DNA from: Aptenodytes patagonicus
Lineage: Eukaryota > Chordata > Aves > Sphenisciformes > Spheniscidae
Reading direction: 5' to 3'
DNA: 64,000 nt
NCBI RefSeq assembly: GCF_965638725.1
Contig: NC_134962.1
Coordinates: 2,797,501 to 2,861,500, forward strand
A program made the position numbers and the translations under genes. Positions 38,701 through 64,000 of this stretch are shown one piece after another. The notes beneath the pieces were generated by a model. That model was not told the origin of the DNA, searched no databases, and saw nothing but the letters and a program-made list of their open reading frames with translations. Each line of letters starts with the position of its first letter. Within the stretch, counting starts at the first letter, position 1.

Positions 38701-41700
38701 CCTCCTTAACGGGCAATATTTTACTAACAGGAAACATCCATTAGGCAGCACAGTGACACATTCAGCTGAACACCCTACAGAAAGCCAATTCATTTGCATC
38801 AATATACTCTACAGAAGCGGGAGGGAAAAGCAATGTATTCTACATGAAACACATTGCAAGGGTTACCAGATGCCTATAAGATGCACCAGCCTATTTGTGT
38901 TTGCCCAGCCTTTTTTCTCAGGACAAATTCAGAACACTTTAAGATGGAAGACTAAATATCTCTAGCCACTTTCAAACATTCAGGCTTGGGCTTTCAAAGC
39001 TGAAGATGACCAGATCTGAGCTGCTGGTCAGTGATGGGTTCTGAGGCATCCCGTGCCCTGTTTATTATCCCTAGGCTGTGGATACCGAGCACTGATCACT
39101 TACTGGTCCTGTGCTGAACAGAAACCGTGTCACTTCGAGCACCATCTTTGTAATAGGCCCAGATGGATATTTTATAGTCAGTGTTCTTCTGCAAGCCTGG
39201 CAGGACAGCAGTTGCCACATTTCCAGCAATGGAGAGCTGCAGCAGGGGAAGAAATGAGTTGGTTGAATTCCCAGGCATCCCCAAGCTAGTTCATGCCATC
39301 CAAGCGTCTGTCTCACAGATTGCCCGTAGGCACAACTGAGTCAGCACTGGGCTTTGGGGACAAAGTCTACTGTTGTGGGTTACACACATCTAAGCAAAGA
39401 CAAAATTCCAGCCCTGATTAATGCAGAGTAGATGCCCATGTATTGCTGCCCAGTTACATTTAGCAGCTACTTCAGTATCACAATGCAGTGCTCTGATGCA
39501 AGGCAGTCAACGTGCCCTGAGCATGAAATCCCTTTGCTCAGTTTCCAGCTTTTAGATGTGCTGGGTACAGAAGCCCCAGTACACCCCTATTCCAGCCCAA
39601 ATGTGAAGCACTGTATGAGAGACTTGTGTATTTAACCCACTTCAACTGCTGTTTGCACTCATACTGAAAATAGGGGCTTGAGATGGAAGAGGTCACCTGG
39701 TCCATCCCTGCCCCCCCTGCACCAGCTCTGTCTCTGGTCATTCTCCTCTGCGTGCTCCTCAGTTGGAGCTCATCCTTCTTCAAGAGCAGTAGCCCAAAAA
39801 GTAGCTTACTAGCACTGAGGAAAGCAAAGGTTGCTTCACCTGTCTTAGAGGCGATACCTCTAGCTATAAATACTCGAGTATTATCTTTGTCTTTTCCACA
39901 ACAACTTGACATTGTGGACTGGTGATTCTTTGCAACCCCAGATCTTTTTCTACTGAATTGCTTCTTAGCTATTTGTTCCACATCCTGTATACCTGTAGTT
40001 AATTATTCCTGCCTAAGCTTAATACTTTCTGCTTGTCCCTATTGAATTTCATCCTTGAGATTTTCCAGAACACTTCTGCAATCTTCCCAGAGCCAGTAGG
40101 ACTCCGACCCTGCCATCCCACTGTCCCGCCCGCTTCCAGCACTCAAGGTGACAGCTCCATTGAACAGAGCCAGACCCAGGACAGACCCTGTCTTATTCCA
40201 TAGGCTCCGTCGGCTGGGTGCTGAACTGTTTAATTTCTTGAGTGCATTAACCTGAATACTTTTGCACCTCCCTATGCCACTCTTGCAGGTGAATTCAGAG
40301 CCACCAAGCAGGCACAAAGCCAACCCCGTCTCCCCAGAGCTGGGCATGGGTTCATACCTCCTGAGGCTTCTCTCCACTGACTGTGCTCCATTTGATCTGA
40401 TAGACAACCACGTCGGAGGCAGCGACAGCTTCCCACTGCAGTCGGAGGCTGTTCCCAGAGAGCTCGGTGACCTTCAGTGCATGCGGCGGGGGGACCTTTA
40501 CTGAGGGATGCAGAAGGAAAACCAGCTGAAGCGCAGGCACTGACAGCGCCTTGTCAGAGCCAAGGTGGGGAGCAGATGGTCGGGGAGCAAAACATCAACC
40601 AGGCAGATGTCTGAGACCAGCCTGTCTTTCACTTCTTCAGACTCGTATGACAACAGCCATCAGGACAGAAAGGGGTAAATTATTTTTAAAACTGTAATTA
40701 AGGAGGATTATCTCATTTGTGGAGAGGACACATACCACGATGGTATTGTAAAGGAGAGAAGGCTAGGAGGGCTCTCAAGGACACAGAGGTTAGCAATACC
40801 TCATGCTTTTTCTTCATTTGCTTCCTTTCTTTATTCCTTCCACCTCATTTTAAACATAACACAGTTGGATGTATTCACACACAAAGAACAACAGTCGTCT
40901 GGGTTTTGTGCAAGGGTTTTGGCCATAAGCTGCTGGGACCGATCTTCAAAGCATCCCGGTTCAGACACACACAAGCCAATTTTGTCACCTGTTACTGGGA
41001 CCAAAAGCATTTCCATTCCCTACTTACAGGTGGTAACGTTGCCGGTAATTGGAAAGGAGTCCCCTTCATCATACATAGATCGGACACTGATGAAGTATTG
41101 GGTGAGGGAGGACAAAGGCCTCAGGACAGTGGATGTTGCAGTGCCAGGAACCTCTACCTGCAATGGAGGAGTTGTATGAGTATTAGGAGAGGAGCATGGG
41201 GACAGCTGCAGAGGGGTTAGCACGTGGGTGGCAACTGCATCCAAAGTGCCCATTTCAGAGTTAAAACACTGCCAGCAGATAAGCCCTCCCTGAACCATGC
41301 AGCTGAAGGAGAACAGGGCAGTATCTGACCTCCCAAATTTCTTTTCCTTCTACCAACCCCTTGAGGACTCACCTCCCCAGTGTTGCTCCCTCTGCTAGAA
41401 ACATAGGTGACGCGGTGAGCTTTCACGGCCGGAGACGCAGCCTCCCAGCTGACTCGAACGGACGCGTGGCTGAGCTCGGAGAAGCTCAGGTATCTGGGAG
41501 GACTCAAGGCCACTGCAACAACAGTTAGTGACAGCACTCTGAGGTTTCACAGGCTGCACAATGGCAATGCCACCGGTTGCCTCCTGCTGCTCTTAGATGA
41601 CCCCACCTTGAACTAAGAGACTCATTCACCACGTGGGAAAATATTCTTTTTATGTCACTACCATACATGCTTCTGGGATGTCATGAAAGGCTACCTGGGC

Positions 41701-47700: not shown

Positions 47701-50700
47701 CTGCTCAAGGCCATTTTATATCTCATTATTGCTGCCAGATAGCAAAAAGCAGATAATGTTATTATTCAGAGAAATGGAAAGTTGCGAGAGGCAGCAATTA
47801 TAAAGGAGGTCTTCTGCCCTCCCCAGTACAATGTTCTCTTGCCTAATTCCACAGCTAAGAATATTGTTATCATGGCACAGGTCTCTGAGGCTCGCAAAGG
47901 TCTTTATGGATAGGAGGTGTGAAATACCTTGTGTGAATGAGTGTTTTTTCTAAACAAACAAAATCCCCTTTGAAGACACTGCCTGTGCTGAATAAATGAG
48001 TTAATTTTCATCTTAGCCACAATGTAATGAGGTCTTACCCATTACCTTAGTTTTAAAGCGTCAGGATGCTCCTATCAAAGTTGAGGGAACATAACCTTCA
48101 GTTTGAAGAAGATCAAAAGTAGGTTGACTTTGTCCTACAGCTTATCGATGGCTGTGATCTTACCAATGGCAAATATCTCTATGCCCAGGTTTTTCAATGT
48201 CTGAGCAGCCAGGTTGGCGTCATCCTGGGATTTTCCATCAGTCAGGAGTATTACCAACTTCTCAGCCTCCAGCCGGGCACCAGCATCTGGTTTCAGATTC
48301 TGCTCCAGGACGTGGGTCAGCGCCAGACCTGGGGAGGAGCAGGGATGGATGGTGTGTTACAGCCTGGCAGACAACCCCCCTGCCTTTACTCTTTTCTCTG
48401 CCCCCAGTGGCTTTGGTCCCCATGGAGGTCATCCCATGGGAACAGCTTCCCCCACTGCAGCTGCACAGATCATTTAGCAGAGACCTAGAGCTGGAATTAC
48501 CTGTAAAGGTGTTGCCGCCCTTGTACCGCAAATTCCTCACAGCCTCCAGCACCTGGTCCCTCGTAGAGTAAGCGCTCAGATCCCACTCTGTGCGGGGATC
48601 GCTGCTGTACTGGGACAGCCCTGGGGAAGGCAAGACCTATCGGCATCATGCAAGGCAAGGTAAGCCACAAGAGGAGATTCGTTCTGGGGAGGCAGCATCA
48701 GGCTTGCCACGGGAGGATGACACAAAATAATGAACGGGACTGGGGGTGAGCAGATTTGGTTTCTAGCACCTCTTTCTCTGCATAGTCCTTGTCATGCAGG
48801 CAGCAAGGTGATGCCTCAGACCCCACTGGGTACAGTGGTACTTACCCCTGTGGTGGTGCTCTGAAGTATTTGATAAGGTCTCAGCGTCAATCAGGGTCAA
48901 ACTAGTTGGCTGCAAGAAGTGGGAAGGATTTACACTGTCCTATTTCATGCACAACCTGGCCAGTGCCATCTGCTGGGGTTAGCATCACTCGGAACTGGAA
49001 GCGGCACCGTTCTTAGCTGAACTCAAAGCAGCCCCAATGCAGCGTTGCCACCGTATCTTTCTGCGCGGTGCTGTGGAGGCTGAGCACCTCATCAGAGGCA
49101 GGCAGCAAACCCCAAATGTGTCTCAGCATCAGTGCCCGACCTGATGCTGCCCAGAAGACATCGCTTCTGTTCACTGTGCAGCTATTTCTTACAGCCACTA
49201 GAGGACAGAGCTTGCTACCAGATGGGAAAAGCTGTCAAGAGCAGCAAGCAGGACCCCACCCTAAAGGAATAAAAGCTCCTCAGAGGAGCACATAAGCACA
49301 GGAACAGAGACCAAGGCCCCTTCGAACACACACTTCCCAAGGTCAGGAAACACGAAAGTGTCCTACCTACTCTTATCTTGTCTTGGGCAATACTGAATGG
49401 GGAAATCAAATTGCTCAGAAACTCCTTAATGAGCTTGAAATTGTTGCGTCCGATGCTCCAGGATCCATCCACAAGCAGGACGATATCAGTCATTGCAGAT
49501 GTGTCACACTGAAACTGGGAACCTGCGGGGGCATAAGGTTTGATATTGAGAGAAGCATTTGTAAAGGAGGAAAAACTGCTTCAGTTTTAAGATAAAAAGC
49601 AAATCTGCAGTGTAAGGCCTTGTCTGGATGATGGATTGGACCATCTGCCAGCCTGACGCATCCCAGCATCTTGGGAAAACCACGTGGCTAAGGATAACCC
49701 ATCTCAGTACCAAGAAATTGAGTGGTGCGCAGCTGCATTTCTGCAAAGAATGGGTTAAAGCTGTCAGGAAGTGTGTGCCTAACCCAAGCACTACTCTCTG
49801 CAAGCTGTCAGCTCCATTACGTCTCAGCCCCAGCCCAGTGCTTCCCTTTTATCTAGCCTAAGTCTCCAAGAATTGCAGGTGACTGCTTAATTCCATTCCA
49901 TCACGAGATCCCCTGTGGGCTATAATTATTTCGTGACTTTATATTAAATCCAATCTCTCCGTAAAACCCTGCTGGCATCACAGATACTCAAGCCCTGCCT
50001 TTCTCCCCACCCCAGGCCTACAGCTTAACAGAGGTTAAGATAGGGCATGTTTCTGACTGGATGCATCTTCCTTGAATATTTTTTGAATGGGGGATTTTTC
50101 ATCTTTGATGGAGGGAAACAGATGATCCCATCAAGATTCAGTGGGCTCCAAAGAGGTTACTCTCCTATCTCTTTTCACAGCCATGGATTCCTACTGGTCT
50201 CAAGGGACCAAACGAGGATGCTCTGGCCAATCCCATTCCCACCATTTCAACAGTGCTGTGAGCCATCTGCCCTGCCACAGTCTCAGCTGACAAATCTGAA
50301 GGATCTTCATGGATCAGTTATCTGTGAAACATGAAGAACAAGTCCAGAAGGTGGAGCAGGTTGGTAACAAACATCACTGATGCGCTTCCTCCCCTCCTGA
50401 AGGCTTGGAAAGGTCCATGGCTGGGGGGGTCTGTTGGAGAATATGAACTCTTACATGGATCTGTCAGAAGCAGGGGGAGGTGGCAACATGAAGAGAGAGA
50501 ATAGTGGCAAATCAATAAATTAAATCATCTGGAAGGAATTTTTGGCCTAGCTCTAGTTTGCCTTAAAATCTGTGACGTTCTGCAGAACTCCAAATTTCTC
50601 CAGTGATCCCTGACAGCTCCCCAAAGCATGACCTAGCAATTGAAAGCACTATCAGCAGCACTGTACTCTTGAAAATCTTGGTGACAGAGAGTGGGATGGA

Positions 50701-53700: not shown

Positions 53701-56700
53701 TTCAGCGTTGAAGTCAAGGAAAGCTGGAGCTTGGCTGGGGTAGAGAGACAGGGGGCTGAGCCCCCCACACACATGGGGTCAAGGACTTCCCATCCTGTGT
53801 CCCTGCAGGCAGGGAGAGAGCTGGGAGCTCCCACAGAACCACCAGACAATGAACCTTTCCTCATCTTTTTTCTCACACAGTCCCAAAGAGCAACACTTTC
53901 TGGCTAAGCCTTTCCCCTAGGATGAAGAGAGCCGAATTTCATCTCTCTCTCATGAATGAGTGATAGGGGGACTGTGCCTGCACTGACATGGCACTTCAGA
54001 CTGCTCTCATGGTGGCCAGAAAAGCTTCTTGTCCATATTGTGTGTACAGCCCAATGGAAAAAGTTTTGACCTAGGTAATCAACACTTGAAACCAGAACAA
54101 CCAGCAGATAATTCCCTCTGCCTTACCTCCATCACCCTAAGGTCTAAATAATGCTCTTACTTAAGTCCTATTATCCACCAGGCAAAAGGTGGAGCTCAGT
54201 CCCTCACTCACACACAAATCTCTGCTGGGTCTGATGTCCAATGCGTTAGCACGTACCTGCCATAGGCTTTACCCGAACTTTGTAGCCATTGATGTTCCCT
54301 TCAGTCTCTTTCCATTTCATTTGGAGCCTGTCTTCCGAAAGGACAGTGAGTTTCAGCCGGCCTGACCCTGGGGAGGAGGAGATGTGTCCATGCTGTTATG
54401 GATGGAATTCCTCCTTCTGCACATACAGACACAAACCACCACACACGCCATCTCCTCTCTGGACACGGGAACACTCGCAGTGCAGAGGAAACCTTCACCA
54501 TCCCATGCAAGTCCTCAGCACCCCCTGACGCTACACAGCAACGCCTGCAGTCCCCCTGCACCTCTGCCAGGAAACCTACCACGAGTCACTGCAAATCTGT
54601 AGCCTCCACCCTATGCAAAGAGGAGTTTCTCATGATCTCGAATGAGACCTCAATATATACTGCTGCAAACAGAGAAAACAGCCTCCCAAGGAAGCGAGGG
54701 CTTTCTCTGCGCCCCTCGCATCTTGGAGGACTCTCCCAGGAGCTTTCATGCAGGACGTTTTGTTTCAGCAAGTGTGTTTAGTGCAAATATCCGAAATGGG
54801 AGGGCAGGAAATAGATAAAAGGGCTCAATGAGGCTGCTGAGAAATACAGAAAGTCCCCAGGTGATGGATCCCATACTTCTGCAGAAAGATAATTTCAGAG
54901 GCAGCTCCAAGGACCAGCTGAGTTTAGAAAGAAAGAAAGGGGGATAAAAGAAAAAAAAAAGAAAAGAGAAAAAAAGAAAAAGAAAGAAAGAAAACCTGAT
55001 AAAGTGTAAATAACAGTTCCTGGCAGGACCATAACTCATGGGCACCAGCTTGTATCAGTTTGCTGCAGGGAGCAGCAAACTAAATGACAAATCCTGAGGA
55101 AAAAAATAATATCAGACAAGGAGGTAAAAAGAAGAAAGAGCACATTTCCTGATCATCTCCAGATTTCACAGATATCTTTTAAACCCCAGCTAGATGTCTG
55201 AACTCATGTGTCACTCTGAATCAATGATTCCTTAGTAAAACATAGCTGTACTGTCGTACAAGTGTCACCATATGAGACTTTTTCACTTGACTGGGTATAG
55301 GATGGCAACTCAGCAGGTTTATCTCCCCTCCTTCCTGACACTGTACCTACAGCTGCCTTTCCAGCAGGCTGCCCTAATTTGCAATGAGTGAGCGCATCCT
55401 TTGCCTGCGCACTATAAGCATCTGCACTCAAATGCCCACCCTCATTTGCAGTTGTTACCAATCTCTTTCCCTTCACCATTACTCATAAAAAAAGCTTAGG
55501 GTGACCTGGAGTGTCCTGCTCAGTGTTGGCAAACTGTGTGTTGCACGGGACACCTCAGGTCCCTAACCTGGTCTTGCATCACATCCAGACATCTCCTGAC
55601 ATCATCTTTGCCATGAAGTCACAGCCCAGGAAAGCAGTGAGAGCTGGCAGTGAGGACTTGCTTGTCTCAGCCCAACATCTGTGCCTTAACCTTTCCTCGC
55701 GGAGACTTCCTGCAGGCTGCCCAACAAGCCGATAACTATTTTGGGGAAACAAAGCTCAGATTCACATCTCGCCCCAGGCAAATCTGAAGGGGAAGAAAGA
55801 AAACATGGGGAAGAGGGGTGAGGGGCAAAATGAAATCCCAGAATCTCGCCTAAGAGAAATGGTAAAAGTTCGTGGAACAATGAGGGGAATTCATAGTTAG
55901 ATTAAACATGGAGCTGTCTTCTTTTGGCCAAGTGTGGTCCAGCTCCTCAGCCATCACTCTAGGAGCCAGGAAGCTAAAAAGGCAAGAATGTCCCCAGACA
56001 GACCAGAAAGGACAGCATCCTCTAAAGCGTCATTATGTGCTGGATGCAAATGAACCCCAGTGCCATGAAAGCTCCACTGTTTCCCTGCCCTGTGTCGGAT
56101 GTGCGCTATTTGATGCTGTAACCTTGATCTCCGGCTGATAGGGAGTTAAGCCCAGACTTAACTGCAGAGGCTGGTCTGGAAGATACTCTGAAGTGCCATC
56201 ACATCTCCAGAAACCTTTGTGCTGACCACTTCCACAGAAGGTTCAAACGTAATATAAAGGTGGATCTTCAACATCAGAAAGGCTGTGATGAGGTGCTATA
56301 GGTAGTTTCTGATCACTTATGGTACTATGGGAGCCCCACATGTTACAGGAGGAACGCGCTTCGTGTGCTTTCTTATCCAGATGTTGCACCACGTGTCACC
56401 ATATACGTCCAAAGCAATAGTTTCAGAGTGCAGGACGGAAGCAGTGACTAACAGAAGCAACACCGCTTTTTCTTCCTGTTTCTCAAGCTCCATTTGCAGA
56501 TCACATAAGCACCCTTCATTGCTTATAGAGGCTGCATTCCTAGGGCGAGGGAGCGGCATGCTGAACTGCTGCCAGTGATGAGGACAGGCTTTGCAGGGTG
56601 GGGAGGGACCAAGATACTCTCCCCAAAATGGGCCCCCTGATCTCCCGGTGCTCTTCACGTGTGGGAACGGGCTGTCTGAAGCTTCACCAACAGACATCAG

Positions 56701-56927
56701 AGCACTGCAGTCCCCTGAAATCCTGCGTGTGATTGGGAACGTTCCTCGCATGCGGTGCCACTGCCAACGGGAAGGGCTTGGGCTGGGCGAGTTAACCCAG
56801 GTGACAGCCAAACCGTAGGGAATTGCCCAGAGCAAGGAACAGGGGGCTCCTTACCTTGGCCCACTCGTCCCCAGACATGGCTCGCCACAGGCAGGCAGGC
56901 AAAAAAGAAACAAGTGCGAATCAGCAT
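8696..56927 (-). CDS. COL20A1: COL20A1, collagen XX alpha-1 chain (spliced; whole coding span, 38-39 exons)
   Basis: FACIT collagen secreted to the extracellular matrix, where such chains form homotrimers and decorate fibrils. The joined exons total about 4413 bases including the stop, or about 1470 residues. Approximate order: signal peptide (1-20), FN3-1 (25-109), S/T/P-rich basic linker (110-229), VWA (235-425), FN3-2 (435-532), FN3-3 (533-622), FN3-4 (623-712), FN3-5 (713-804), FN3-6 (805-895), 19-residue spacer (896-914), TSPN (915-1137), Cys cluster (1138-1154), COL2 (1155-1306), NC2 (1307-1356), COL1 (1357-1459), NC1 with C-x4-C. The VWA keeps a complete MIDAS (DGSWS, the T of GGNTFTG, the D of LLTDGKS). 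One VWA and six FN3 domains distinguish it from COL12A1 and COL14A1, which have more of each. CHRNA4 lies beyond the 3' end, as expected for COL20A1. Most domain borders use phase 1 introns. The first noncoding exon and the promoter are unresolved. Confidence 0.93.
8910..9065 (-). CDS. COL20A1: COL20A1 exon: end of COL1 and start of NC1
   Basis: 156 bases, phase 1 in and out. It encodes [17 protein letters not shown] through [11 protein letters not shown] and then [18 protein letters not shown] is the second imperfection. The two cysteines four residues apart mark the COL1/NC1 junction of FACIT collagens. The acceptor is CTCCTTCTTCAG and the donor AGAG|GTAAGT. Confidence 0.94.
9884..9961 (-). 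CDS. COL20A1: COL20A1 exon: COL1, middle
   Basis: 78 bases, phase 1 in and out. It encodes [20 protein letters not shown] then PRGRT. GASEEG is a five-residue spacing between glycines, one of the COL1 imperfections expected in FACIT chains. The acceptor is GTGATTAG and the donor ACAG|GTAGAG. Confidence 0.93.
11298..11486 (-). CDS. COL20A1: COL20A1 exon: NC2 end and start of COL1
   Basis: 189 bases, phase 1 in and out. [20 protein letters not shown] leads into EERLKP and then a continuous Gly-X-Y run ([18 protein letters not shown] onward). The acceptor is CTTCCCTTCTTAG and the donor AGAG|GTATGG. Confidence 0.93.
12057..12123 (-). CDS. COL20A1: COL20A1 exon: NC2, first part
   Basis: 67 bases, phase 0 to phase 1. 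It encodes [20 protein letters not shown] and IQ, the non-collagenous segment between COL2 and COL1. It probably forms a helix and holds one Cys. The acceptor is CACTTTAG and the donor CAGA|GTGAGT. Confidence 0.92.
13430..13465 (-). CDS. COL20A1: COL20A1 exon: end of COL2 (36 bp)
   Basis: Four triplets, [12 protein letters not shown]. The acceptor is CTCCTTTTAG and the donor AAA|GTGAGT. The exon is too short for simple ORF detection. Confidence 0.92.
14148..14219 (-). CDS. COL20A1: COL20A1 exon: COL2 Gly-X-Y (72 bp)
   Basis: Eight triplets, beginning [18 protein letters not shown] and ending GDVGPT. The acceptor is ATGTCTGCAG and the donor ACA|GTAAGT. Confidence 0.93.
15712..15765 (-). CDS. 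COL20A1: COL20A1 exon: COL2 Gly-X-Y (54 bp)
   Basis: Six triplets, [18 protein letters not shown]. The acceptor is GGCTTTGCAG and the donor AGG|GTGAGT. Confidence 0.93.
16093..16146 (-). CDS. COL20A1: COL20A1 exon: COL2 Gly-X-Y (54 bp)
   Basis: Six triplets, [18 protein letters not shown]. The acceptor is TGATTTACAG and the donor AAG|GTAAAA. Confidence 0.93.
16499..16552 (-). CDS. COL20A1: COL20A1 exon: COL2 Gly-X-Y (54 bp)
   Basis: Six triplets, [18 protein letters not shown]. The acceptor is TTAATCCAAG and the donor CAG|GTAATG. Confidence 0.93.
17051..17146 (-). CDS. COL20A1: COL20A1 exon: COL2 Gly-X-Y with one imperfection
   Basis: 96 bases. It encodes [18 protein letters not shown] and ends [17 protein letters not shown] breaks the Gly-every-third rule by two extra residues, so the 96 bases are 32 codons. 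The acceptor is TGGCTTTAG and the donor GTG|GTATGT. Confidence 0.93.
18130..18183 (-). CDS. COL20A1: COL20A1 exon: COL2 Gly-X-Y (54 bp)
   Basis: A classic 54-base collagen exon of six Gly-X-Y triplets: [18 protein letters not shown]. The acceptor is TACTGGCAG and the donor AAG|GTGAGT. Confidence 0.94.
20280..20558 (+). mobile_element. CR1-type LINE, 3' end fragment
   Basis: This is the 3' portion of an avian CR1 retrotransposon. Recognisable pieces include TTAGATTGGATATTAGGAAA, GGTTGTTAAGCATTGGAACA, the GGCTGCCCAGGGAAGTGG block, TTGGACTCGATGATCTTAAG and the terminal ATTCTATGATTCT. It is 5'-truncated, has no open reading frame, and sits in a COL20A1 intron in antisense orientation. The left limit is approximate. 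Confidence 0.93.
20677..20763 (-). CDS. COL20A1: COL20A1 exon: Cys cluster and start of COL2 triple helix
   Basis: 87 bases, phase 0. It encodes [18 protein letters not shown] and then [11 protein letters not shown], the first Gly-X-Y repeats. Three cysteines precede the helix and could form interchain disulfides. The acceptor is TTGTTTCAG and the donor CCT|GTAAGT. Confidence 0.92.
21267..21290 (+). repeat. G-run followed by A-run
   Basis: About ten Gs directly followed by fourteen As in a COL20A1 intron. This is a low-complexity tract prone to length polymorphism and sequencing error. Confidence 0.7.
21401..21478 (-). CDS. COL20A1: COL20A1 exon: end of TSPN
   Basis: 78 bases, phase 0. It encodes [20 protein letters not shown] and CDLPAL. 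The final TSPN strand and the Cys-Cys pair are typical of FACIT chains. The acceptor is a strong T-rich tract ending TTTTTTTCCACAG and the donor CTG|GTAAGA. Confidence 0.93.
23511..23669 (-). CDS. COL20A1: COL20A1 exon: TSPN segment 4
   Basis: 159 bases, phase 0 in and out. It encodes [20 protein letters not shown], then [20 protein letters not shown] and a basic [12 protein letters not shown] tail. The acceptor is TGCCGCCCAG and the donor TCG|GTGAGT. Confidence 0.93.
24433..24542 (-). CDS. COL20A1: COL20A1 exon: TSPN segment 3 (weak donor)
   Basis: 110 bases, phase 1 to phase 0. It encodes [20 protein letters not shown] and ends [10 protein letters not shown]. The end is fixed by the family motif FYGSFHK joining to VHVAV in the next exon. 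The donor there is ATAAG|GTCCTT, which matches the consensus poorly at +3 to +6. Confidence 0.88.
24922..25064 (-). CDS. COL20A1: COL20A1 exon: TSPN segment 2
   Basis: 143 bases, phase 2 to phase 1. It encodes [20 protein letters not shown] and then [20 protein letters not shown]. The donor GACC|GTAAGG was chosen over nearby GTs because it restores [12 protein letters not shown] across the junction. The acceptor is TCGTTCCAG. Confidence 0.92.
26806..26944 (-). CDS. COL20A1: COL20A1 exon: TSPN segment 1
   Basis: 139 bases, phase 1 to phase 2. It encodes [20 protein letters not shown] followed by [20 protein letters not shown], the beginning of the thrombospondin N-terminal-like (laminin G fold) domain. 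The acceptor is TTGTTCCAG and the donor CCAG|GTGGGA. Confidence 0.93.
28876..28914 (-). CDS. COL20A1: COL20A1 exon: short lead-in to TSPN
   Basis: 39 bases, phase 1 in and out. It encodes [12 protein letters not shown] after a shared Ala codon. The Cys-Pro-Thr lead-in is characteristic of FACIT TSPN domains. The acceptor is TTCTTCTCATAG and the donor ACGAG|GTACAG. Confidence 0.88.
31562..31618 (-). CDS. COL20A1: COL20A1 exon: 19-residue spacer between FN3-6 and TSPN (possible cassette exon)
   Basis: 57 bases, phase 1 in and out. The acceptor is excellent (GCTTTCTCTTTCAG) and the donor is AGAGG|GTAAAT. It encodes [19 protein letters not shown], which has no recognised fold. It keeps the frame when included and could be skipped without a frameshift, because the adjacent exons also join directly in phase 1. 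Confidence 0.75.
31921..32050 (-). CDS. COL20A1: COL20A1 exon: FN3-6, second half
   Basis: 130 bases, phase 0 to phase 1. It encodes [20 protein letters not shown] and then [16 protein letters not shown]. The acceptor is CCCGCTGTAG and the donor GACGG|GTAAGT. Confidence 0.92.
32687..32829 (-). CDS. COL20A1: COL20A1 exon: FN3-6, first half
   Basis: 143 bases, phase 1 to phase 0. It encodes [20 protein letters not shown] and then [16 protein letters not shown]. The acceptor is CCTGCCACAG and the donor AACA|GTAAGT. Confidence 0.93.
32830..39103 (-). other. COL20A1: COL20A1 long intron between FN3-5 and FN3-6 (6.3 kb)
   Basis: This is the largest intron of the gene. I found no additional in-phase exon with collagen-family sequence. 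Reading frames of 60-140 codons occur on both strands but lack splice context and domains. Two plus-strand TATA-like motifs (about 36219 and 37191) and a TTA/TTG-rich patch (about 38331-38350) are the only features noted. Confidence 0.6.
39104..39236 (-). CDS. COL20A1: COL20A1 exon: FN3-5, second half
   Basis: 133 bases, phase 0 to phase 1. It encodes [20 protein letters not shown] and then [20 protein letters not shown]. The acceptor is CCCTGCTGCAG and the donor ACCA|GTAAGT. Confidence 0.93.
40358..40500 (-). CDS. COL20A1: COL20A1 exon: FN3-5, first half
   Basis: 143 bases, phase 1 to phase 0. It encodes [20 protein letters not shown] and ends [15 protein letters not shown]. The acceptor is ATCCCTCAG and the donor GAG|GTATGA. 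Confidence 0.93.
41028..41157 (-). CDS. COL20A1: COL20A1 exon: FN3-4, second half
   Basis: 130 bases, phase 0 to phase 1. It encodes [20 protein letters not shown] then [16 protein letters not shown] and ends NVTT (a possible N-glycosylation site). The acceptor is CATTGCAG and the donor ACCT|GTAAGT. Confidence 0.93.
41373..41512 (-). CDS. COL20A1: COL20A1 exon: FN3-4, first half
   Basis: 140 bases, phase 1 to phase 0. It encodes [20 protein letters not shown] and ends [14 protein letters not shown]. The acceptor is TTGTTGCAG and the donor GAG|GTGAGT. Confidence 0.93.
41987..42110 (-). CDS. COL20A1: COL20A1 exon: FN3-3, second half
   Basis: 124 bases, phase 0 to phase 1. It encodes [20 protein letters not shown] and ends ASIQETT. 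An internal GATGTGAGTGAT is a strong decoy donor inside the exon. The real donor is ACCT|GTAAGT. Confidence 0.92.
42345..42366 (+). repeat. Short CTG/TTG trinucleotide repeat
   Basis: TGCTGCTGCTGCTG followed by TTGTTGTT in a COL20A1 intron. It is too short to suggest expansion. Confidence 0.7.
43433..43578 (-). CDS. COL20A1: COL20A1 exon: FN3-3, first half
   Basis: 146 bases, phase 1 to phase 0. It encodes [20 protein letters not shown] and then [19 protein letters not shown]. The acceptor is TTCCCTTCAG and the donor GAG|GTAGAG. Confidence 0.92.
43849..43980 (-). mobile_element. Degenerate CR1 LINE 3' fragment, reverse orientation
   Basis: The plus strand reads as a diverged reverse complement of a CR1 3' region. 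Recognisable pieces are AGAATGACATAGGTGGGAAG, the GGTACAACCTGCTATTCAAA block and GAGCAGGTTGCTCAGGGTC. It lies in a COL20A1 intron and has no coding capacity. The limits are approximate. Confidence 0.72.
44114..44243 (-). CDS. COL20A1: COL20A1 exon: FN3-2, second half
   Basis: 130 bases, phase 0 to phase 1. It encodes [20 protein letters not shown] with the FN3 Leu and Tyr core, followed by [18 protein letters not shown] is a possible N-glycosylation site. The acceptor is TGCTTTCAG and the donor ACAT|GTAGGT. Confidence 0.92.
44907..45079 (-). CDS. COL20A1: COL20A1 exon: FN3-2, first half
   Basis: 173 bases, phase 1 to phase 0. A short lead-in ([20 protein letters not shown]) precedes [16 protein letters not shown], the FN3 A-B strands with Trp. 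It ends [15 protein letters not shown]. The acceptor is AATTCCTAG and the donor GAG|GTGAGA. Confidence 0.92.
46417..46581 (-). CDS. COL20A1: COL20A1 exon: VWA, last segment
   Basis: 165 bases, phase 1 in and out. It encodes [20 protein letters not shown] followed by [20 protein letters not shown] and a Cys-containing final helix. It ends in a basic KEKSNKESA tail leading to FN3-2. The acceptor is CTGGTTGCAG and the donor CGCAG|GTGAAG. Confidence 0.93.
48164..48328 (-). CDS. COL20A1: COL20A1 exon: VWA, third segment ([10 protein letters not shown])
   Basis: 165 bases, phase 1 in and out. It encodes [17 protein letters not shown] through [14 protein letters not shown] and ends IEIFAI. The Asp of LLTDGKS completes the MIDAS. 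The acceptor is CTCCCCAG and the donor ATTG|GTAAGA. Confidence 0.94.
48501..48620 (-). CDS. COL20A1: COL20A1 exon: VWA, second segment
   Basis: 120 bases, phase 1 in and out. The peptide [15 protein letters not shown] through RYKGGNTFT is the conserved VWA strand-helix-loop. The Thr of GGNTFTG is the second MIDAS contact. The acceptor is CTTCCCCAG and the donor ACAG|GTAATT. Confidence 0.93.
49367..49522 (-). CDS. COL20A1: COL20A1 exon: VWA domain start with MIDAS DGSWS
   Basis: 156 bases, phase 1 in and out. It encodes [20 protein letters not shown] followed by WSIG. The first beta strand and the DxSxS metal-site motif of a von Willebrand factor A domain are intact. The exon continues through helix 1 to DKIRV. 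The donor is AGTAG|GTAGGA. Confidence 0.93.
50774..50974 (-). CDS. COL20A1: COL20A1 exon: linker between FN3-1 and VWA, part 2 (basic, Thr-rich)
   Basis: 201 bases, phase 1 in and out. The acceptor is GGAGCACAG behind a TTTTTCTCT tract and the donor GCGAG|GTGAGA. It encodes a very basic start ([11 protein letters not shown]) followed by a Thr/Ser/Pro-rich run including [11 protein letters not shown], a plausible mucin-like O-glycosylated linker. No other frame fits both neighbours. The acceptor is the weakest part of this call. Confidence 0.72.
51937..52095 (-). CDS. COL20A1: COL20A1 exon: linker between FN3-1 and VWA, part 1
   Basis: 159 bases, phase 1 in and out. The acceptor is TTCCTACAG and the donor CCAG|GTGGGT. 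It encodes [17 protein letters not shown] and then a Ser/Ala/Pro-rich stretch without cysteines. It has two possible N-glycosylation sites (NAS, NLT). It is predicted to be unstructured and has no recognised fold. Confidence 0.82.
52337..52480 (-). CDS. COL20A1: COL20A1 exon: FN3-1, second half
   Basis: 144 bases, encoding [20 protein letters not shown] then [16 protein letters not shown], with the conserved Leu and Tyr of an FN3 domain. The donor region reads TTTGTGAGTAAGT. The second GT (GTAAGT) gives the phase 1 end needed for the next exon, so 52337 is chosen as the boundary. Confidence 0.9.
54257..54367 (-). CDS. COL20A1: COL20A1 exon: FN3-1, first half
   Basis: 111 bases, phase 1 in and out. 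The acceptor is CCTCCCCAG and the donor CAG|GTACGT. The peptide contains [19 protein letters not shown], the opening strands and Trp of a fibronectin type III domain, and ends VRVKPMA. Confidence 0.9.
54368..56854 (-). other. COL20A1: COL20A1 intron after the signal-peptide exon
   Basis: A 2.5 kb intron. No further in-phase exon was seen. It contains the polypurine tract at 54926-54994. Confidence 0.6.
54926..54994 (+). repeat. Polypurine tract with GAAA repeats
   Basis: About 70 bases of almost pure A/G on the plus strand, interrupted by a single T. On the COL20A1 sense strand this is a CT-rich tract inside an intron. Confidence 0.85.
56855..56927 (-). CDS. COL20A1: COL20A1 exon with ATG: signal peptide
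   Basis: The start ATG (56927-56925) is preceded by ACC, a good initiation context. It encodes 24 residues, [16 protein letters not shown] then HVWGRVGQ, with a basic residue, a hydrophobic core and small residues near a likely cleavage site: a secretory signal peptide. The donor is CAAG|GTAAGG (phase 1). A probable acceptor TTCTCGTAG lies just upstream (exon start 56939), so 5'UTR exon(s) lie at higher coordinates. Confidence 0.88.
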
Positions 56928-59356
56928 GGTGACCGGGACCTACGAGAAGGCAAACATCAGGAAGGAGAATTAAGAGTTACATTTCACCATGACAGTACCC
57001 CGTGTTTTTTGCAGTCCTCAGTTAAGGGACCACAAGCTGAGATCTACAGCTCTATACATCACTGAAAGAGTGGCTGGAGAAGCACATGCTGAATTTTCCT
57101 GCAATTCCTATATATTATTTTACATTCTTGGTCTCTCCAAAACAGCTGTTCAGTGCCTTGGACCAGTACTAAATGGAGTTTGTACACCTGATGGGGAGTA
57201 GGCTTTGACCCAGTACTCTCAGCCTGCTTGGTCCTGGAGATGGGCACTGCCCATCAACTGTACTCAACAGTGGTACAATACGTGCTGGGTTCCACTCTGA
57301 TCACGGAAATAAGCAACATTGGCCAAATCACTGGACAGACATAGATTCCAGAACAACTTCTGTTTTAAATAATGTAGAAGTAATTATTTCCAGTTATCAT
57401 GACCAAAATCAATATAGGTATACAAACACACAGCATCTTTCTCATGTCCCTGCGATGCACACACTGATCCTAAGAGGAAAAGCATTTAGAGGAGCACTCT
57501 TTGGCAGACAAGCTCCTCACACCACAGATGTAATGACCCTGCAGTCACTGTGATAAAGCAATTATGCAACAGGAGGGATACCGCAGAATTAGCTGAGTTT
57601 ATATGTCAACAGTTTAGAAACAAGGGTTTTATTTCTTATTTCGCGGTGGAGTTCCCGAGAAGTTACCTTCAGGACTTGTTGGGATAGTCTTGTTTTAACT
57701 TGTTCACCCGAACAAGACTGAAAACAGATGCAATTACAGACTTAATCACGGCAGACGATCAGTTTGACTTACAAGTAACCTCTGCAGCGTTAACAGAGCT
57801 GGCTGGCTAAGGACAGCCAGCCTACAGCCCACGGACCTCGAGCACCTTCAGTTACCTTTGCTGGCCTAGATTTCAGTTTTATTCAGTTTGGGTCAGAAAT
57901 GTCAGGTCATGACAAACCACCTTGATAGAAACAGTGCCTCCCCCTCGTCTCAGTCTCAATATACCAGGTTTAAAACCTATGCTGTTGGCCTTTTGCAACG
58001 CATCATTGGCATCTGTCATTTTTGTGCTACACATTTCAGCCTTATTGCTTTTGGCAGAACCAGACCATACGCAAGTTTCCTCCACCGCCGACCGCAGTGA
58101 CATTTCACTTCTGTTCATTTTGATGGACAGGTATTTAAAGGCTCCTGGCAAATGCTTATTTCCCCTCAAATACATCAGCTTTTTAGAGATTTCAAGGAAA
58201 AATAAATATGCACATGAGTGACCCAGCCATGATCTCCTGGGTTTTAAATCAGTTCTAAAATGCTGTAAGAATGAATGGAAAAATATGCAAGTTATAACAG
58301 GGAGATGTTAACCACCCTACTCAGTCTGTGATTTTTTTTTTTTTTTGATTGAAGATCAGGTTATACGGAACAACTGCAGTGTAACTGAAGCCCTTCGCCA
58401 TCGGAAACACTTGGGGTTTTTCTCCAGCTAATACAGTGAAGTCATTGGTTATAAAAAACAGCAAACATTTTACAGGTGGGTTTCAGGAATCTGACTGTCA
58501 CCTCAAGAAAAGCAAAGCCTGCCCTGGCTGCAGAGGTACACGTGCCAAACAGCAGCAAGAAGCCTGCATTTTTGAGAAATTCCCTGAATCAAAAGTTCAT
58601 TTGTGCCATTTTGTAATGCCACCAAACTGCTCTTGATTTCCTTACAACTACCTCGTGGCTCTGCTGGCAAACGGATGCCAAACTCTGGCAAAAGCACTGG
58701 ATTGTGTATGATCTTTTCATGTTAACCAGGGTTATACGGGATCCGAAGTCCAGTGAAATAAACACGCGGGCTTCTCCAGCCTGCACTGAACCGGGCTTAC
58801 TGCAGGGTCCGATTCAGCCAGGAGCTTCCACCCTGATGTGTCAGTAAGGATGAGTTCAGTATTAACCCAGGTTGGATCCAGTAAGTCCCCAGGGTGTGGA
58901 TCTTTACTGCGACTAAAGCAAGGAACAGGGACTTCATCTCTTCTTCCTAGCTCAGAGGCAAACCCATCACTATTTTGCCTCTTTGCCAACTTTCATTTTC
59001 CTATCCGTAAAGCAGGAATAACAAACGCACCTGTTTGAAATGGTGGAAGATACATGGCTGGAGGAGCTCTCTCTTCCCCACCCTGCAGAACTCCCTCTCC
59101 GCAGGTTACCTGCTGGACCCCAAGCCCCCACTGGGTCTCCATGGTCCCTTCCCATCCATTGCTGCCCTCGCTGGTGCCACCATCCAAGCCGGGCTGAGCT
59201 GTGGACCCCAGGATGGAGGGGACCACAGTGACATCAGCCTGCTGGCGGGCAGGCAGCCTCCGGCACGCCGATGCCTCTCTCCGGTTACTTGCCCAGGGAA
59301 GGAATTTGGAGACAGCAACACATGGAGCATGTGGCATTTCCAGGGCCTGGAAAATT

Positions 59357-59406
59357 GGGGGCGGGGGGGAACACGGGGGACACACACACACACACACGCA
59401 CACACA
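59357..59406 (+). repeat. G-runs joined to a (CA)n repeat
   Basis: Three G-runs (5, 7 and 5 Gs) within 24 bases are followed immediately by a CA repeat of about 13 units with one CG. It lies between the DEPTOR-like gene and COL20A1. Confidence 0.85.
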
Positions 59407-60324
59407 GCACTTCCTGCTTGCCCCAGCTGTGCGCTCCGAGGGGATTTGGAGATTAAGGCAGTTGGAGATCCCCTTATTTGCACAGAAAGTTTTAAAAGTA
59501 GTTGCTTTAATTAAAGGAAAAAAAAAAAATTCTATGCAAAAAAATCCCTGCCGCATGTTTAAATCAGCACAACTAAAAGTGGCAATTTGGGGGCACTGTG
59601 AATTATTTCCACCCTCCACAGCCACAGTCTGGGGACATTTCCTCATCCCAGAGGGCATCACCGTCTCTGCACAGAGCTGCTGGCAGAAGCAATGTCACCT
59701 CATGGCCCACTCGCTGCCAGACACGCGAGCAGTGCCAGGGACAGCCCTGCAGAAGAGACCAGCGACCTGCCCAAGGTAGCCAGCTGCAGGGAGTAAATCT
59801 GTCCCACACTCCCTGAGGACTCCTAAAGGACCTAAAACAGACTGTAAAAACAAGAAAAATCACATTCATCAAACCCTTTCTGTTCTCTCCTGGAAATCTC
59901 TGGTATTTCAGTTCCACTATTGAACAAAAAGTCTTAATTATCCCAGCATCAGTCTCAAAAAAGTAAGGCACAACTTTCACTTCTCGGCTGAGCCTTTGCA
60001 GCTCCCCACAGCCCGGGCAGGCTTAGTAACATCAGCTTGATGCAGACCCACACCACACCTCCAGGTGGGAAAAAACCCACCCAGACAAACTGTTATTGCT
60101 AACAAACCCTTCCAAGTGCTATCCTCTCTGGCAGCAATTTCCCCGCAGGTTTTATAGTATTAACCACAAAATAGAAGGAAAAAAAACAAACCAACAAACA
60201 AAGTGCGTTTCTCACAGCCATCGCTCCAAAAGAATTGCTAAAGCAGTCCTGGCAATATTTACACCTGACCTACAGTGAATGTGAGTCTTGAAGGTCATCC
60301 ATAAGAGGATGAGACCTGCCACCC

Positions 60325-60610
60325 CTGCGCAGCATCGGCAGCGCTGCCCCGAGCTGAGCTGCGCCAGCTCCAAGTTTCCCGGAGAGCAAAACCCTGCAGA
60401 AGTTCCCTGCTCCGCCGATACCCACGCATGCCCCAAAAGAACGCAGCCCCTCCTCGGCATCCCCGCAAACCGAGCCCCAAAGGGGAATGAGCCACAGACC
60501 TCTGTGGAGCGGCGCGGCTTTCCCTGGAGTCAGCCGGGAGGTGCGATGAATCCAGCTACATTCTTAAATTGTGGGAGAAGCAGCCCTGGCGCCTCGTCTG
60601 CTCCTCGGCG
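60325..60610. promoter_or_regulatory. Small CpG-rich patch, candidate promoter or enhancer upstream of COL20A1
   Basis: I count roughly 20 CpG dinucleotides over about 290 bases, far denser than the flanks. It lies about 3.5 kb upstream of the COL20A1 ATG exon and about 2.7 kb downstream of the DEPTOR-like 3' end. It could be the COL20A1 promoter with a first noncoding exon, but no splice donor was assigned. Confidence 0.35.
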
Positions 60611-63294
60611 TGATTAGAGATTTCAATTCCCAGACGTCAGGAGGGATAAGGAAGGGGAGGGAGAGCAGGGGGAGAGGGACAGCGATTCCCCCACCTCCCT
60701 CTCACCACGCAGCAGAGAGCACTGCTTGGCCCCTACGTGCAGCTAAATAAAGCGTGCACAAAAAGCAAGAGGCGGCTTCTGCGAAAAACAGTAAACAGCT
60801 TTTAGTGGGTTTGCTAACTAAATACTAAATATATGTCTAGGAAGCTGCACTCTGATTTCCTAGAGCGCAGCAACAAGTCGTGGCTCCCGCCCACCGTCAG
60901 ACTCCCAGGGATGAAGTCATTCGCATCCCATTAAATATTTTTGAGAGCCCGGCGTTTGCACTGAAGGCAAATTGCATTGCATTTGTTTAAGGAAATTAAG
61001 CACATCTGTAAGTTTTGCAAGGCCAGAGTCTGAATCATGAACTGGAGCTCGACGGTGCTGCAGACTTCCCAGCTGCAGGACACAGCCCTGACCTCCAGCA
61101 GCATGTGGTCCCCAGCCCTGGGAGTGCCTGGGAGAGCCGCCCAGCTCCGCGCCAAAACTTTTTCAGGAAGATTTTGTCCTCGTTGCCAGGAATGAAACAA
61201 CTGACAGTGGCATTTCTCATTCCAAATGGAGGTCAGATTTTCAGCTGCATCTGCGGGGGCTGTCAGCATCAGACTCCCATTGCAACAGAGCGAGCTGCAA
61301 GAAACTTGCAATTGCTGTTCTATAGGAAACACAGGCACCTTTCAAAGTGTCAACTCAGGGGGGGGGAATCATAGTTTTTAAATATTTGTGCACACTAAAG
61401 AAACATTTGGTAGTTCATTGCCATTTTGCTTTATAATCTCGTAAGTATTTAAAAGCATCACAATATACAGGCCAAAGGATAACATCAAAAGGAATCACTT
61501 AAATCTTGTTAAGATAAAACATGGAACATTTGGTAGCCTGTGGAGAGAGAGTTGTCACTGCCCTGCATGTAAATACCACAAATTACCTCTTCTGTAATTC
61601 CTACTGGATTTCAGTAGTTGCTCAGATTCGCTACAGTTTACTTTAAAACTAGGAGGAGGTGAGAAAGGAAAGAGCACAGACCTCCTGCACTTCACTTTCG
61701 GGGAATTCAGATCCAGAGCTAAAATTCGTGTTCTGTTTATGTCAGAAAAATCTGGAGCTGCTTCCAGTGCTTATGTTCAGGCTGTTGCTTTCTGGCCTAC
61801 CTTTCCCAAGGTACCCACAAAATGCTGTGGTCTCCTGGCTTTGACTTTAGTTCAAGCCCAACACTCTGGATTAAAACTTGGGGCCACCACAGGCACCCAA
61901 ACCCTCCCTGAACAGCAACACAAACCAGAATTTAAAAAGCAAAAAAGGCAGATGGATGCCGCTTTGCTTGTGCACTGAATGGCTAGAAATAACAACTGTG
62001 AGTATATTGACAAATGGCTTAAAAGATTGTCTGGTTTCACTTAGGGGCTGGAAGGACCCCAGTGGATTATCAGTGCAAACATCTTGCTTGGACCACGTTC
62101 CAGGAACGCTGTGCTCCAAGTAGTCCTATTACCTCTGCACCAGCGCTGGGGGAGCACATATCCCTTTATACCACGGAAAAAAAAAAATAAAGGCAGACAG
62201 CAATAATGCAAAACCTAATATACAGCTGACACCAGATTTTCCAGGAAAGTCAGCTCCCACTTTAACTTCAACACAAATCAAAATGACTGGTTGTCTGGTG
62301 GGGTTTTTTTTTGGGGGGTGGTGGTGGTTTTGTTCGTTTGGTTTTTTAAGACTTGGTTGGTGGCCAAAGGAGCTGCACTGAGGGACCTGCCCTAAGCAGG
62401 AGTGCTGGAAATCATCCTGCTATATGCACAGCATTGCAGGCTGATCACAAGCAGGATACCCTGTGAACTGGAAAGCAAGAAGCCTCCCCAATTTCTTGTC
62501 ATTACCTGGTATTCTATATTTAGTTCACTTTCTGGGTAGTCTGCATAGGAATACTCTCCATTGCCTGCAAATGCAGTCATCCTGGGAACAGCAGGGCCCA
62601 GGGGGGCTGGATTTTGGTGACTTTCACTCATTTCTGTTCCCTCCCAGAGTCAAACTCAGATTATGACACATTTCCTTTTGGGCAGACACTGTTTAGGGTC
62701 TCTCCTTTCCCCCCCACTGCCTCCCGTCACTCGGTCGGTAGCAGCCTATGTTTGGGACCTCTGCCTGGCTCCATGCCGAGGTGAAGCTGATTAATGAATT
62801 TAAGCATTATTAGAGGGTGGGGGCTCAAAAAGCGCAATCATGGAAGTCTCACTTTTTCAAGAAAGAGCTGGGAAGAGCAACCAGTCCTGGCTGTGAGCAT
62901 GGCTAAGCCAAAAGAGTAGCAGGAGCCTTAGACTTTCTTTACAAGGAAGCATACATCACTGTATTCATTTCCTTATTTTCTTGACAGAGTCAATGGCACA
63001 GCTTATTGGGCCATCTGGAAAGCACATTGTGTTCTTGGTAGAGTGCACAGACAATTCAGGGGAGCTCAGACGTACTCACTTGCTTGGTATCGAACTTCTT
63101 GCTGCTTACCAGCTTGTACCACCTGCCTCGCAGCTTGGCTGGGTGAATGGCTTGTTCCAAGGCTTGGTTTCATGATGGGCTGAACTCTCCCGCTGGCATT
63201 AAAAAGGAGCTGCAAGAGCTTAGACCCTCTCAAGATCAGGTAGAGCCAAATATTTCAACAACATCAAAATCCAAGACTTGTCCATTAGAATGTA

Positions 63295-63300
63295 TTTATT
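63295..63300 (-). promoter_or_regulatory. Poly(A) signal AATAAA for the DEPTOR-like gene
   Basis: The plus strand reads TTTATT at 63295-63300, so AATAAA lies on the minus strand about 130 bases after the stop codon. It is the first canonical signal downstream. Confidence 0.55.
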
Positions 63301-63429
63301 TGAAAATATATGAAAATGCCTGGCTAACATTTCACAGTGAATGGTCAAGCTTGGTCCCTCCCCACAGTCCATCCTTGCTTAGTGGAGCGTCCTCCCTTTC
63401 CAAACAGCGGTGGGATGAGACTCCTTCGC

Positions 63430-63555
63430 TCATTCAATGGCTTCCATGACTTCCATCACGAGAGTTCGTGGGCCTGTCATGATGAGGCTGCTGATGGTCT
63501 GATAGTCCAGATGCAAAACATACATACCATTCACTGAGAAAACAAACTGGCACAC
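63430..63555 (-). CDS. DEPTOR-like gene, last coding exon: C-terminal half of PDZ domain
   Basis: A minus-strand exon after the acceptor CTTGCAG. It encodes 41 residues and a TGA at 63432-63430. The peptide runs VCQFVFSVNGMYVLHLDYQT, then ISSLIMTGPRTLVMEVMEAI and a final Glu. This matches the C-terminal PDZ end of DEPTOR, the DEP-DEP-PDZ inhibitor and partner of mTOR, which also stops right after the EVME segment. SVNG is the usual PDZ loop, and SSLIMTGPRTLVMEV forms the second helix and last strand. P-Rex GEFs carry related PDZ domains but continue well beyond them, so a stop here favours DEPTOR. Upstream exons (the DEP domains and the PDZ start) lie right of the window; I found none between 63556 and 64000. 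The gene is in tandem orientation upstream of COL20A1. Mammalian DEPTOR sits beside COL14A1, so this copy is more likely a paralogue than DEPTOR itself. Confidence 0.82.
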   Translation of the reverse strand: MCQFVFSVNGMYVLHLDYQTISSLIMTGPRTLVMEVMEAIE

Positions 63556-64000
63556 CTGCAAGGAGAGGAAGGGCAGGTTACCTTCAGCTCATGTCTTCGT
63601 GGCAACTTCTGCCCGTGACTGGCTAGAGCCAGAGGCTGCAATGCAAATAACTCGCTACAAAACCCTGCAAACCCTAAAGCGTTACCACTCCATAAGCTCC
63701 ACTAATAATCACTGTGCTACGATCACTATATCATAAAAAAGGGACCAAAGGGATTTAGACTGTGAGCTAACAGAGAAAAGACAGACTCATTTATGAAAAG
63801 TGGTTCATTTCACAGATGGAAATGAGGCACAATATTAACATCTACCAATTTGGTAGCAAATGAGATTAGGTAAGGAGAAATTAACTGGGCTCTTGAGTAA
63901 ATGAAACAAATTCATCCATCCCCTTCCAATCCTGCCTGAAGCAAACAAGGAGTCACACTCTGCCTCTGAAGAATCCCATTATTTCAAATACCCAAGTGAC
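63556..64000 (-). other. Intron of the DEPTOR-like gene (partial)
   Basis: The final intron, running off the right edge. No upstream PDZ exon is recognisable in it. A GAAG|GTAACC near 63582 looks like a donor but is only about 25 bases from the acceptor, too close for an intron. Confidence 0.5.

Follow-up and report, generated by a model that had tools for sequence, protein, structure and literature searches.

How a DEPTOR-type coding exon has come to lie upstream of a COL20A1 gene and co-oriented with it is the question raised by the right-hand end of a 64,000-nt window (the whole stretch of DNA analysed; C14:2797501-2861500 of assembly G000). The first-pass annotation has described a minus-strand terminal exon encoding a DEPTOR-type PDZ end with its stop, and has proposed that a DEPTOR-COL14/20 block was duplicated, leaving a second DEPTOR-like gene that mammals have lost. 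The gene to which the exon belongs is termed DEPTOR2 in the following, and the features at its end are (window positions):

63430..63555, minus: terminal coding exon (exon 9) of DEPTOR2, encoding the C-terminal PDZ portion and carrying the TGA stop (translation, phmmer, gene model)
63556..63557, minus: splice acceptor AG of exon 9, a junction common to the DEPTOR gene on contig C2
63295..63300, minus: AATAAA polyadenylation-type signal, 129 nt past the DEPTOR2 stop (motif only)

The description of this exon has been found to be exact, as its translation consists of 41 codons followed by TGA (VCQFVFSVNGMYVLHLDYQTISSLIMTGPRTLVMEVMEAIE), preceded by the acceptor sequence 'ccttgcag'. All 41 residues align with human DEPTOR (7owg), the top PDB match (phmmer, E=7.5e-15), and the second-best match, the SHANK3 PDZ, reaches E=0.55; the 41-residue exon alone has returned no Pfam family. 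Two matches to exon 9 in total have been found in the 1.35-Gb assembly, the exon itself and C2:14301936-14302058 (76%), which excludes a third copy. Searches with Rfam on window positions 52000-64000 and with ARAGORN on the window have returned nothing.

Extension to the right has recovered both DEP domains, as the first-pass annotation had anticipated, and the upstream exons are those of a DEPTOR gene. The complete DEPTOR2 gene (C14:2860930-2878273, minus) comprises nine coding exons across 17.3 kb, with exons 1-8 lying outside the window and reaching C14:2878273, equivalent to a would-be window position 80773. The exons have been found by a translated comparison of C14 with C2 and then set at splice sites:

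C14:2878188-2878273, minus: DEPTOR2 exon 1
C14:2870237-2870415, minus: DEPTOR2 exon 2
C14:2866924-2867047, minus: DEPTOR2 exon 3
C14:2865478-2865656, minus: DEPTOR2 exon 4
C14:2864666-2864851, minus: DEPTOR2 exon 5
C14:2864147-2864287, minus: DEPTOR2 exon 6
C14:2863746-2863816, minus: DEPTOR2 exon 7
C14:2862180-2862284, minus: DEPTOR2 exon 8
C14:2860930-2861055, minus: DEPTOR2 exon 9

All 16 splice ends conform to GT/AG, and the reading frame stays open over 398 codons with neither frameshift nor internal stop. The resulting protein of 398 aa has the order DEP-DEP-linker-PDZ and matches human DEPTOR (7owg) with 605.7 bits (phmmer, E=3.4e-181). Pfam DEP has been detected with 153 bits in two stretches above cut-off, as it has twice in the C2 DEPTOR protein; Pfam PDZ_6 scores 26.3 bits in DEPTOR2 and 22.3 bits in C2 DEPTOR, both below the cut-off of 27.0, and the PDZ domain of DEPTOR2 aligns end-to-end with human DEPTOR (phmmer). 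Four of the 19 DEP-domain matches in the assembly fall in the two DEPTOR gene models. A scan of viral contigs for relatives has given two pattern matches, neither of them a relative. The chance that the upstream exons are part of a Rac exchanger of the P-Rex type is practically negligible: PREX1 and PREX2 have the DEP-DEP-PDZ order in common with DEPTOR2 and are the next PDB matches, but they are far more distant (147 bits for PREX2 vs 606 for DEPTOR; phmmer, PDB), the 398-aa model starts at an ATG matching that of DEPTOR, and a Pfam scan of the model from this ATG has found no DH-PH part. By score and architecture, a P-Rex identity of the gene has thus been ruled out.

The locus might instead be an ancient local pseudogene, or a gene in the process of being lost, from which no protein is made. 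An isolated pseudogene exon, the case that would have undone the first-pass reading, is ruled out by the nine-exon gene, and a retrocopy by the retention of all eight introns. In the comparison with C2 DEPTOR, the NG86 method has given no dS owing to saturation, and the proportions of differences are reported instead, with a pN of 0.182 and a saturated pS of 0.762; the third position accounts for 218 of the 367 changed codon positions. Selection on the DEPTOR2 protein is purifying: because pN lies far under pS and third-position changes are in excess, the protein has been kept by selection since the two genes parted. Decay would be compatible with a CpG o/e of 0.37 at exon 1, which lacks the island seen at exon 1 of C2 DEPTOR (0.78-0.85), and with the repeat-like sequence ahead of the ATG, but the uninterrupted frame, the intact splice ends, the AATAAA after the stop and the low pN render a pseudogene highly improbable. 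The missing island suggests a narrower expression of DEPTOR2, and expression that is weak or tissue-limited is possible. The repeat-like sequence itself, at C14:2878818-2879062 and ∼0.6 kb upstream of the ATG, comprises ORFs resembling an interspersed repeat, presumably of CR1-type; several relatives occur in the C2 region, and the DEPTOR2 promoter may include this sequence or be close to it.

The first-pass annotation has further asked whether the same species carries a DEPTOR beside COL14A1. Indeed, a complete gene of nine exons encoding 397 aa has been located on C2 (14301930-14375708, minus) between DSCC1 and a COL14A1-type gene, which rules out that a sole DEPTOR has been moved to C14 by rearrangement. 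The positions and phases of all eight introns are identical between the two genes, and exon lengths are equal in seven of nine (exons 6 and 9 differ), whereas DEPTOR2, with the same number of coding exons, is four times shorter (17.3 vs 73.8 kb). C2 DEPTOR matches human DEPTOR (7owg) with 791.2 bits and PREX2 with 139 bits (phmmer). Across human DEPTOR residues 22-408, identity has been determined to be 347/387 (90%) between human and C2, 268/386 (69%) between human and C14, and 276/386 between C2 and C14. Based on these bit scores and pairwise identities, the C2 gene is assigned as the DEPTOR orthologue and the C14 gene as a paralogue approximately equally distant from human and C2.

The neighbourhoods of both genes have been delimited by domain and exon matches, and the COL20A1 features in the window are:

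54255..54383, minus: FN3-type exon region nearest DEPTOR2, assigned as the first COL20A1 exon region, ∼9 kb downstream (comparison with C2 exon)
49362..49508, minus: COL20A1 von Willebrand A-domain exon, first part (PDB match, genome comparison)
48499..48624, minus: COL20A1 von Willebrand A-domain exon, second part (PDB match, genome comparison)
41023..41546, minus: two COL20A1 open frames jointly giving an FN3 domain, with human COL20A1 (2ee3) as best match (PDB match)

The placement of the exon upstream of a co-oriented COL20A1 has thereby been borne out. An FN3 piece of 89 aa from the window has returned 21 PDB matches, led by 'Collagen alpha-1(XX) chain' (2ee3, E=1.8e-23, 85.6 bits); in the two chains that follow, the highest-scoring single domain reaches 24 and 31. 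A longer joined query has three COL20A1 entries (2ee3, 2ekj, 5kf4) among the best 60 of 72 PDB matches, its top match being collagen VI alpha-3 (9han, E=4.5e-106, 7 stretches) via repeated domains. On the other side, ARFGAP1 has been named by PDB 3dwd (E=2.4e-62) from exons at C14:2909520-2909633 and 2907863-2908036, the interval between these GAP exons and DEPTOR2 being 29.6 kb. Among the genes located, the order on C14 is ARFGAP1, DEPTOR2 and COL20A1, all on the minus strand and with COL20A1 downstream of DEPTOR2.

On C2, the order is DSCC1, DEPTOR and the COL14A1-type gene, with the collagen on the DEPTOR strand and downstream; we take this collagen to be COL14A1 from its position and the human map. 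DSCC1 has been identified by its Pfam family (PF09724) at 14394522-14406283 on the plus strand, which holds all five genome matches, 18.8 kb from DEPTOR. The C2 search with the COL20A1-side query has given three rows, of which two are FN3 matches to one C2 exon; the remaining row, on the opposite strand, has been taken as a repeat and dropped. The matched exon, C2:14270872-14270997 (minus), follows the stop codon of C2 DEPTOR at a distance of 31 kb and is 39.5% identical to window 54255..54383 over 43 residues. The two von Willebrand A-domain (vWA) exons of the COL14A1-type gene (C2:14244699-14244830 and 14245517-14245672) are 68% and 58% identical to those of COL20A1, and a further vWA match lies at C2:14203623. 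An exon pair on C3 (37462651, 37462841), presumably of COL12A1, reaches 67% and 55%, and a single C3 exon has the best vWA score outside C14. Because the C3 pair matches about as well, the collagen comparison does not identify C2 specifically as the partner of COL20A1: the vWA exons indicate a FACIT-type collagen beside each DEPTOR, but alone do not pair COL20A1 with COL14A1. The search of the assembly has placed no DEPTOR exon 9 on C3.

In human (hg19), an array-CGH paper lists the order NKAIN4, FLJ16779, ARFGAP1, MIR4326, COL20A1, CHRNA4 and KCNQ2 without DEPTOR, with MIR4326 as the only entry between ARFGAP1 and COL20A1 in the available part of that source (PMC5024517). The absence of DEPTOR next to COL20A1, put forward for mammals in the first-pass annotation, thus holds for human as given in this one published gene list, from which the mammalian absence is taken here; the comparison as a whole covers one genome (G000) and human. 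The human chromosome 8 and 20 regions around CHRNA2 and CHRNA4 have been described as a 2R paralogon, with which the two parallel blocks in one genome, ARFGAP1-DEPTOR2-COL20A1 and DSCC1-DEPTOR-COL14A1, are consistent (available text of PMC6354393). The proposed block duplication is supported in this way. Taken together, the two gene orders, the human gene list and the chr8/chr20 paralogon are most simply explained by an early duplication of the block and a subsequent loss on the human line, from which we infer the 2R date. An ancestral DEPTOR-COL14/20 block would have been copied during the genome duplications of early vertebrates; DEPTOR-COL14A1 would descend from one copy and DEPTOR2-COL20A1 from the other, and later loss of DEPTOR2 on the human line would have left ARFGAP1 next to COL20A1.

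The age of the duplication has been addressed by a maximum-likelihood tree of the DEP tandem (five sequences, 200 bootstrap replicates, distant P-Rex outgroup). The best tree groups human and C2 DEPTOR with DEPTOR2 outside (bootstrap 94), and the AU test rejects neither alternative (C2+C14, p=0.187; human+C14, p=0.090). At columns where PREX1 and PREX2 agree, two support human+C2, one supports C2+C14 and none human+C14. The tree would therefore favour, without forcing, a duplication before the amniotes, and taken alone it leaves the date unsettled. A later, lineage-specific duplicate of DEPTOR, arising after the split from mammals, landing beside COL20A1 and evolving fast, appears quite unlikely. 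It would fit the C2+C14 sister grouping kept by the AU test and the site patterns over the whole protein, where C14 is distinct at 85 sites, human at 15 (C2=C14) and C2 at 7 (human=C14), the small excess of 15 over 7 pointing toward a later duplication. However, a copy is unlikely to have landed by chance upstream of, and co-oriented with, a gene paralogous to the neighbour of DEPTOR itself, the retained introns speak against a retrocopy, synonymous sites are saturated, and the best tree separates C2 from C14.

Regarding the function of a second DEPTOR, the residues facing mTOR have been compared with human. In human DEPTOR, PDZ residues 336-342 and 354-362 together with linker residues 304-308 contact mTOR, and a response to the FRB domain has been described for the linker patches 228-232, 244-249, 261-264 and 280-285 (PMC8439657, PMC8439649). 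The contact stretches of DEPTOR2 are identical to human at 7/7 (336-342), 8/9 (354-362) and 5/5 (304-308) positions, and the FRB patches at 4/5, 6/6, 3/4 and 2/6, respectively; by part, exon 8 is conserved at 32/35, the linker at 60/95 and DEP2 at 45/75 positions. Docking on the FAT domain of mTOR would accordingly be expected for the DEPTOR2 PDZ domain with its N-terminal extension, and placement on the FAT/kinase crevice for its DEP tandem, leading to partial inhibition as in DEPTOR. A protein that has left mTOR and kept its fold for another partner, for instance one engaged by the free groove of the PDZ domain or lipids bound by the two DEP domains, is conceivable but has a rather small probability: the linker and DEP2 are far less conserved than the PDZ contacts and patch 280-285 is largely changed, yet the mTOR-facing PDZ and linker stretches, with exon 8, are among the best-kept parts of the protein.

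The degradation signal of DEPTOR has changed in DEPTOR2. In DEPTOR, phosphorylation of S293 and S299 by mTOR is followed by that of S286, S287 and S291 within SSGYFS by S6K1/RSK1 and by betaTrCP binding (PMC5237168). This phosphodegron (286-291) reads SNPYFS in DEPTOR2, by which S287 and G288 are lost and S286 and S291 kept; S265 and S299 are replaced (S265Q, S299P), and position 293 is a threonine. The alignment is less sure just before the degron, where C14 carries a two-residue insertion. A scan of DEPTOR2 for DSGxxS-like patterns has found none, and two have been found in C2 DEPTOR, SSGYFS and EEGMSS at residue 2. Seven phosphorylated linker positions have been reported for DEPTOR in the available text of PMC8439649; one of them, 296, is a leucine in the PDB sequence, and DEPTOR2 has S/T at four of the other six. 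Positions 286, 291, 293 and 295 are still S/T, and some phospho-control of DEPTOR2 may persist through these remaining residues.

Judged from its residues, DEPTOR2 is most likely an mTOR-docking inhibitor with weakened or absent mTOR-betaTrCP turnover. Without the SSGYFS phosphodegron, S265 and S299, growth signalling should not clear DEPTOR2 as it does DEPTOR, and the protein would restrain mTOR without being subject to the mTOR-betaTrCP degradation loop. Overall, the exon very probably forms the 3′ end of a second DEPTOR gene, intact and a 2R ohnologue lost on the human line, whose product would bind mTOR and escape, or only weakly undergo, mTOR-driven degradation. Far more tentatively, as a possibility we would not yet lean on, vertebrates may have started with two DEPTORs, the one lost in humans being an mTOR-bound inhibitor immune to mTOR-triggered betaTrCP clearance and thus a standing brake in the lineages that keep it.

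Copies from genome duplication that have been lost in mammals are already known, CHRNA8, CHRNA11 and CHRNB5 being 2R duplicates of this kind kept elsewhere (PMC6354393); in contrast to these receptor genes, DEPTOR2 is a candidate mTOR regulator, and its changed control element is the point of interest. Beyond the first-pass annotation, the present analysis adds the complete gene model, the DEPTOR locus on C2, the location of DEPTOR2 between ARFGAP1 and COL20A1, and the altered phosphodegron. The word 'paralog' does not occur in the available text of three DEPTOR papers (PMC8439649, PMC8439657, PMC5237168), and no DEPTOR paralogue appears in titles or abstract openings among the matches listed, a coverage mostly outside subscription journals; automatic genome annotation may already carry DEPTOR2 under a LOC name. 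A second DEPTOR means that results on mammalian mTOR control may not transfer to the lineages keeping it, in which a knockout of DEPTOR only may leave a backup. A protein that has naturally lost the degron but retained the docking surface would provide a ready-made test of the purpose of the mTOR-DEPTOR degradation loop. If this reading is true, DEPTOR2 may be an mTOR brake that is harder to remove, and humans would be without such a standing brake.

Two minor observations concern neighbouring and related sequence. Between DEPTOR2 and COL20A1, an exon-like open stretch has been noted at window 62506-62631 (minus), with 42 codons running from an ATG to a GT (MSESHQNPAPLGPAVPRMTAFAGNGEYSYADYPESELNIEYQ); the 50-kb stretch following DEPTOR on C2 contains no match to it, and it could be chance or an unannotated exon. 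A DEP-domain match interrupted by one TAG and one TAA codon has been observed at C2:38507546-38507686 (minus), possibly a decayed DEP gene or a match that runs across a splice site.
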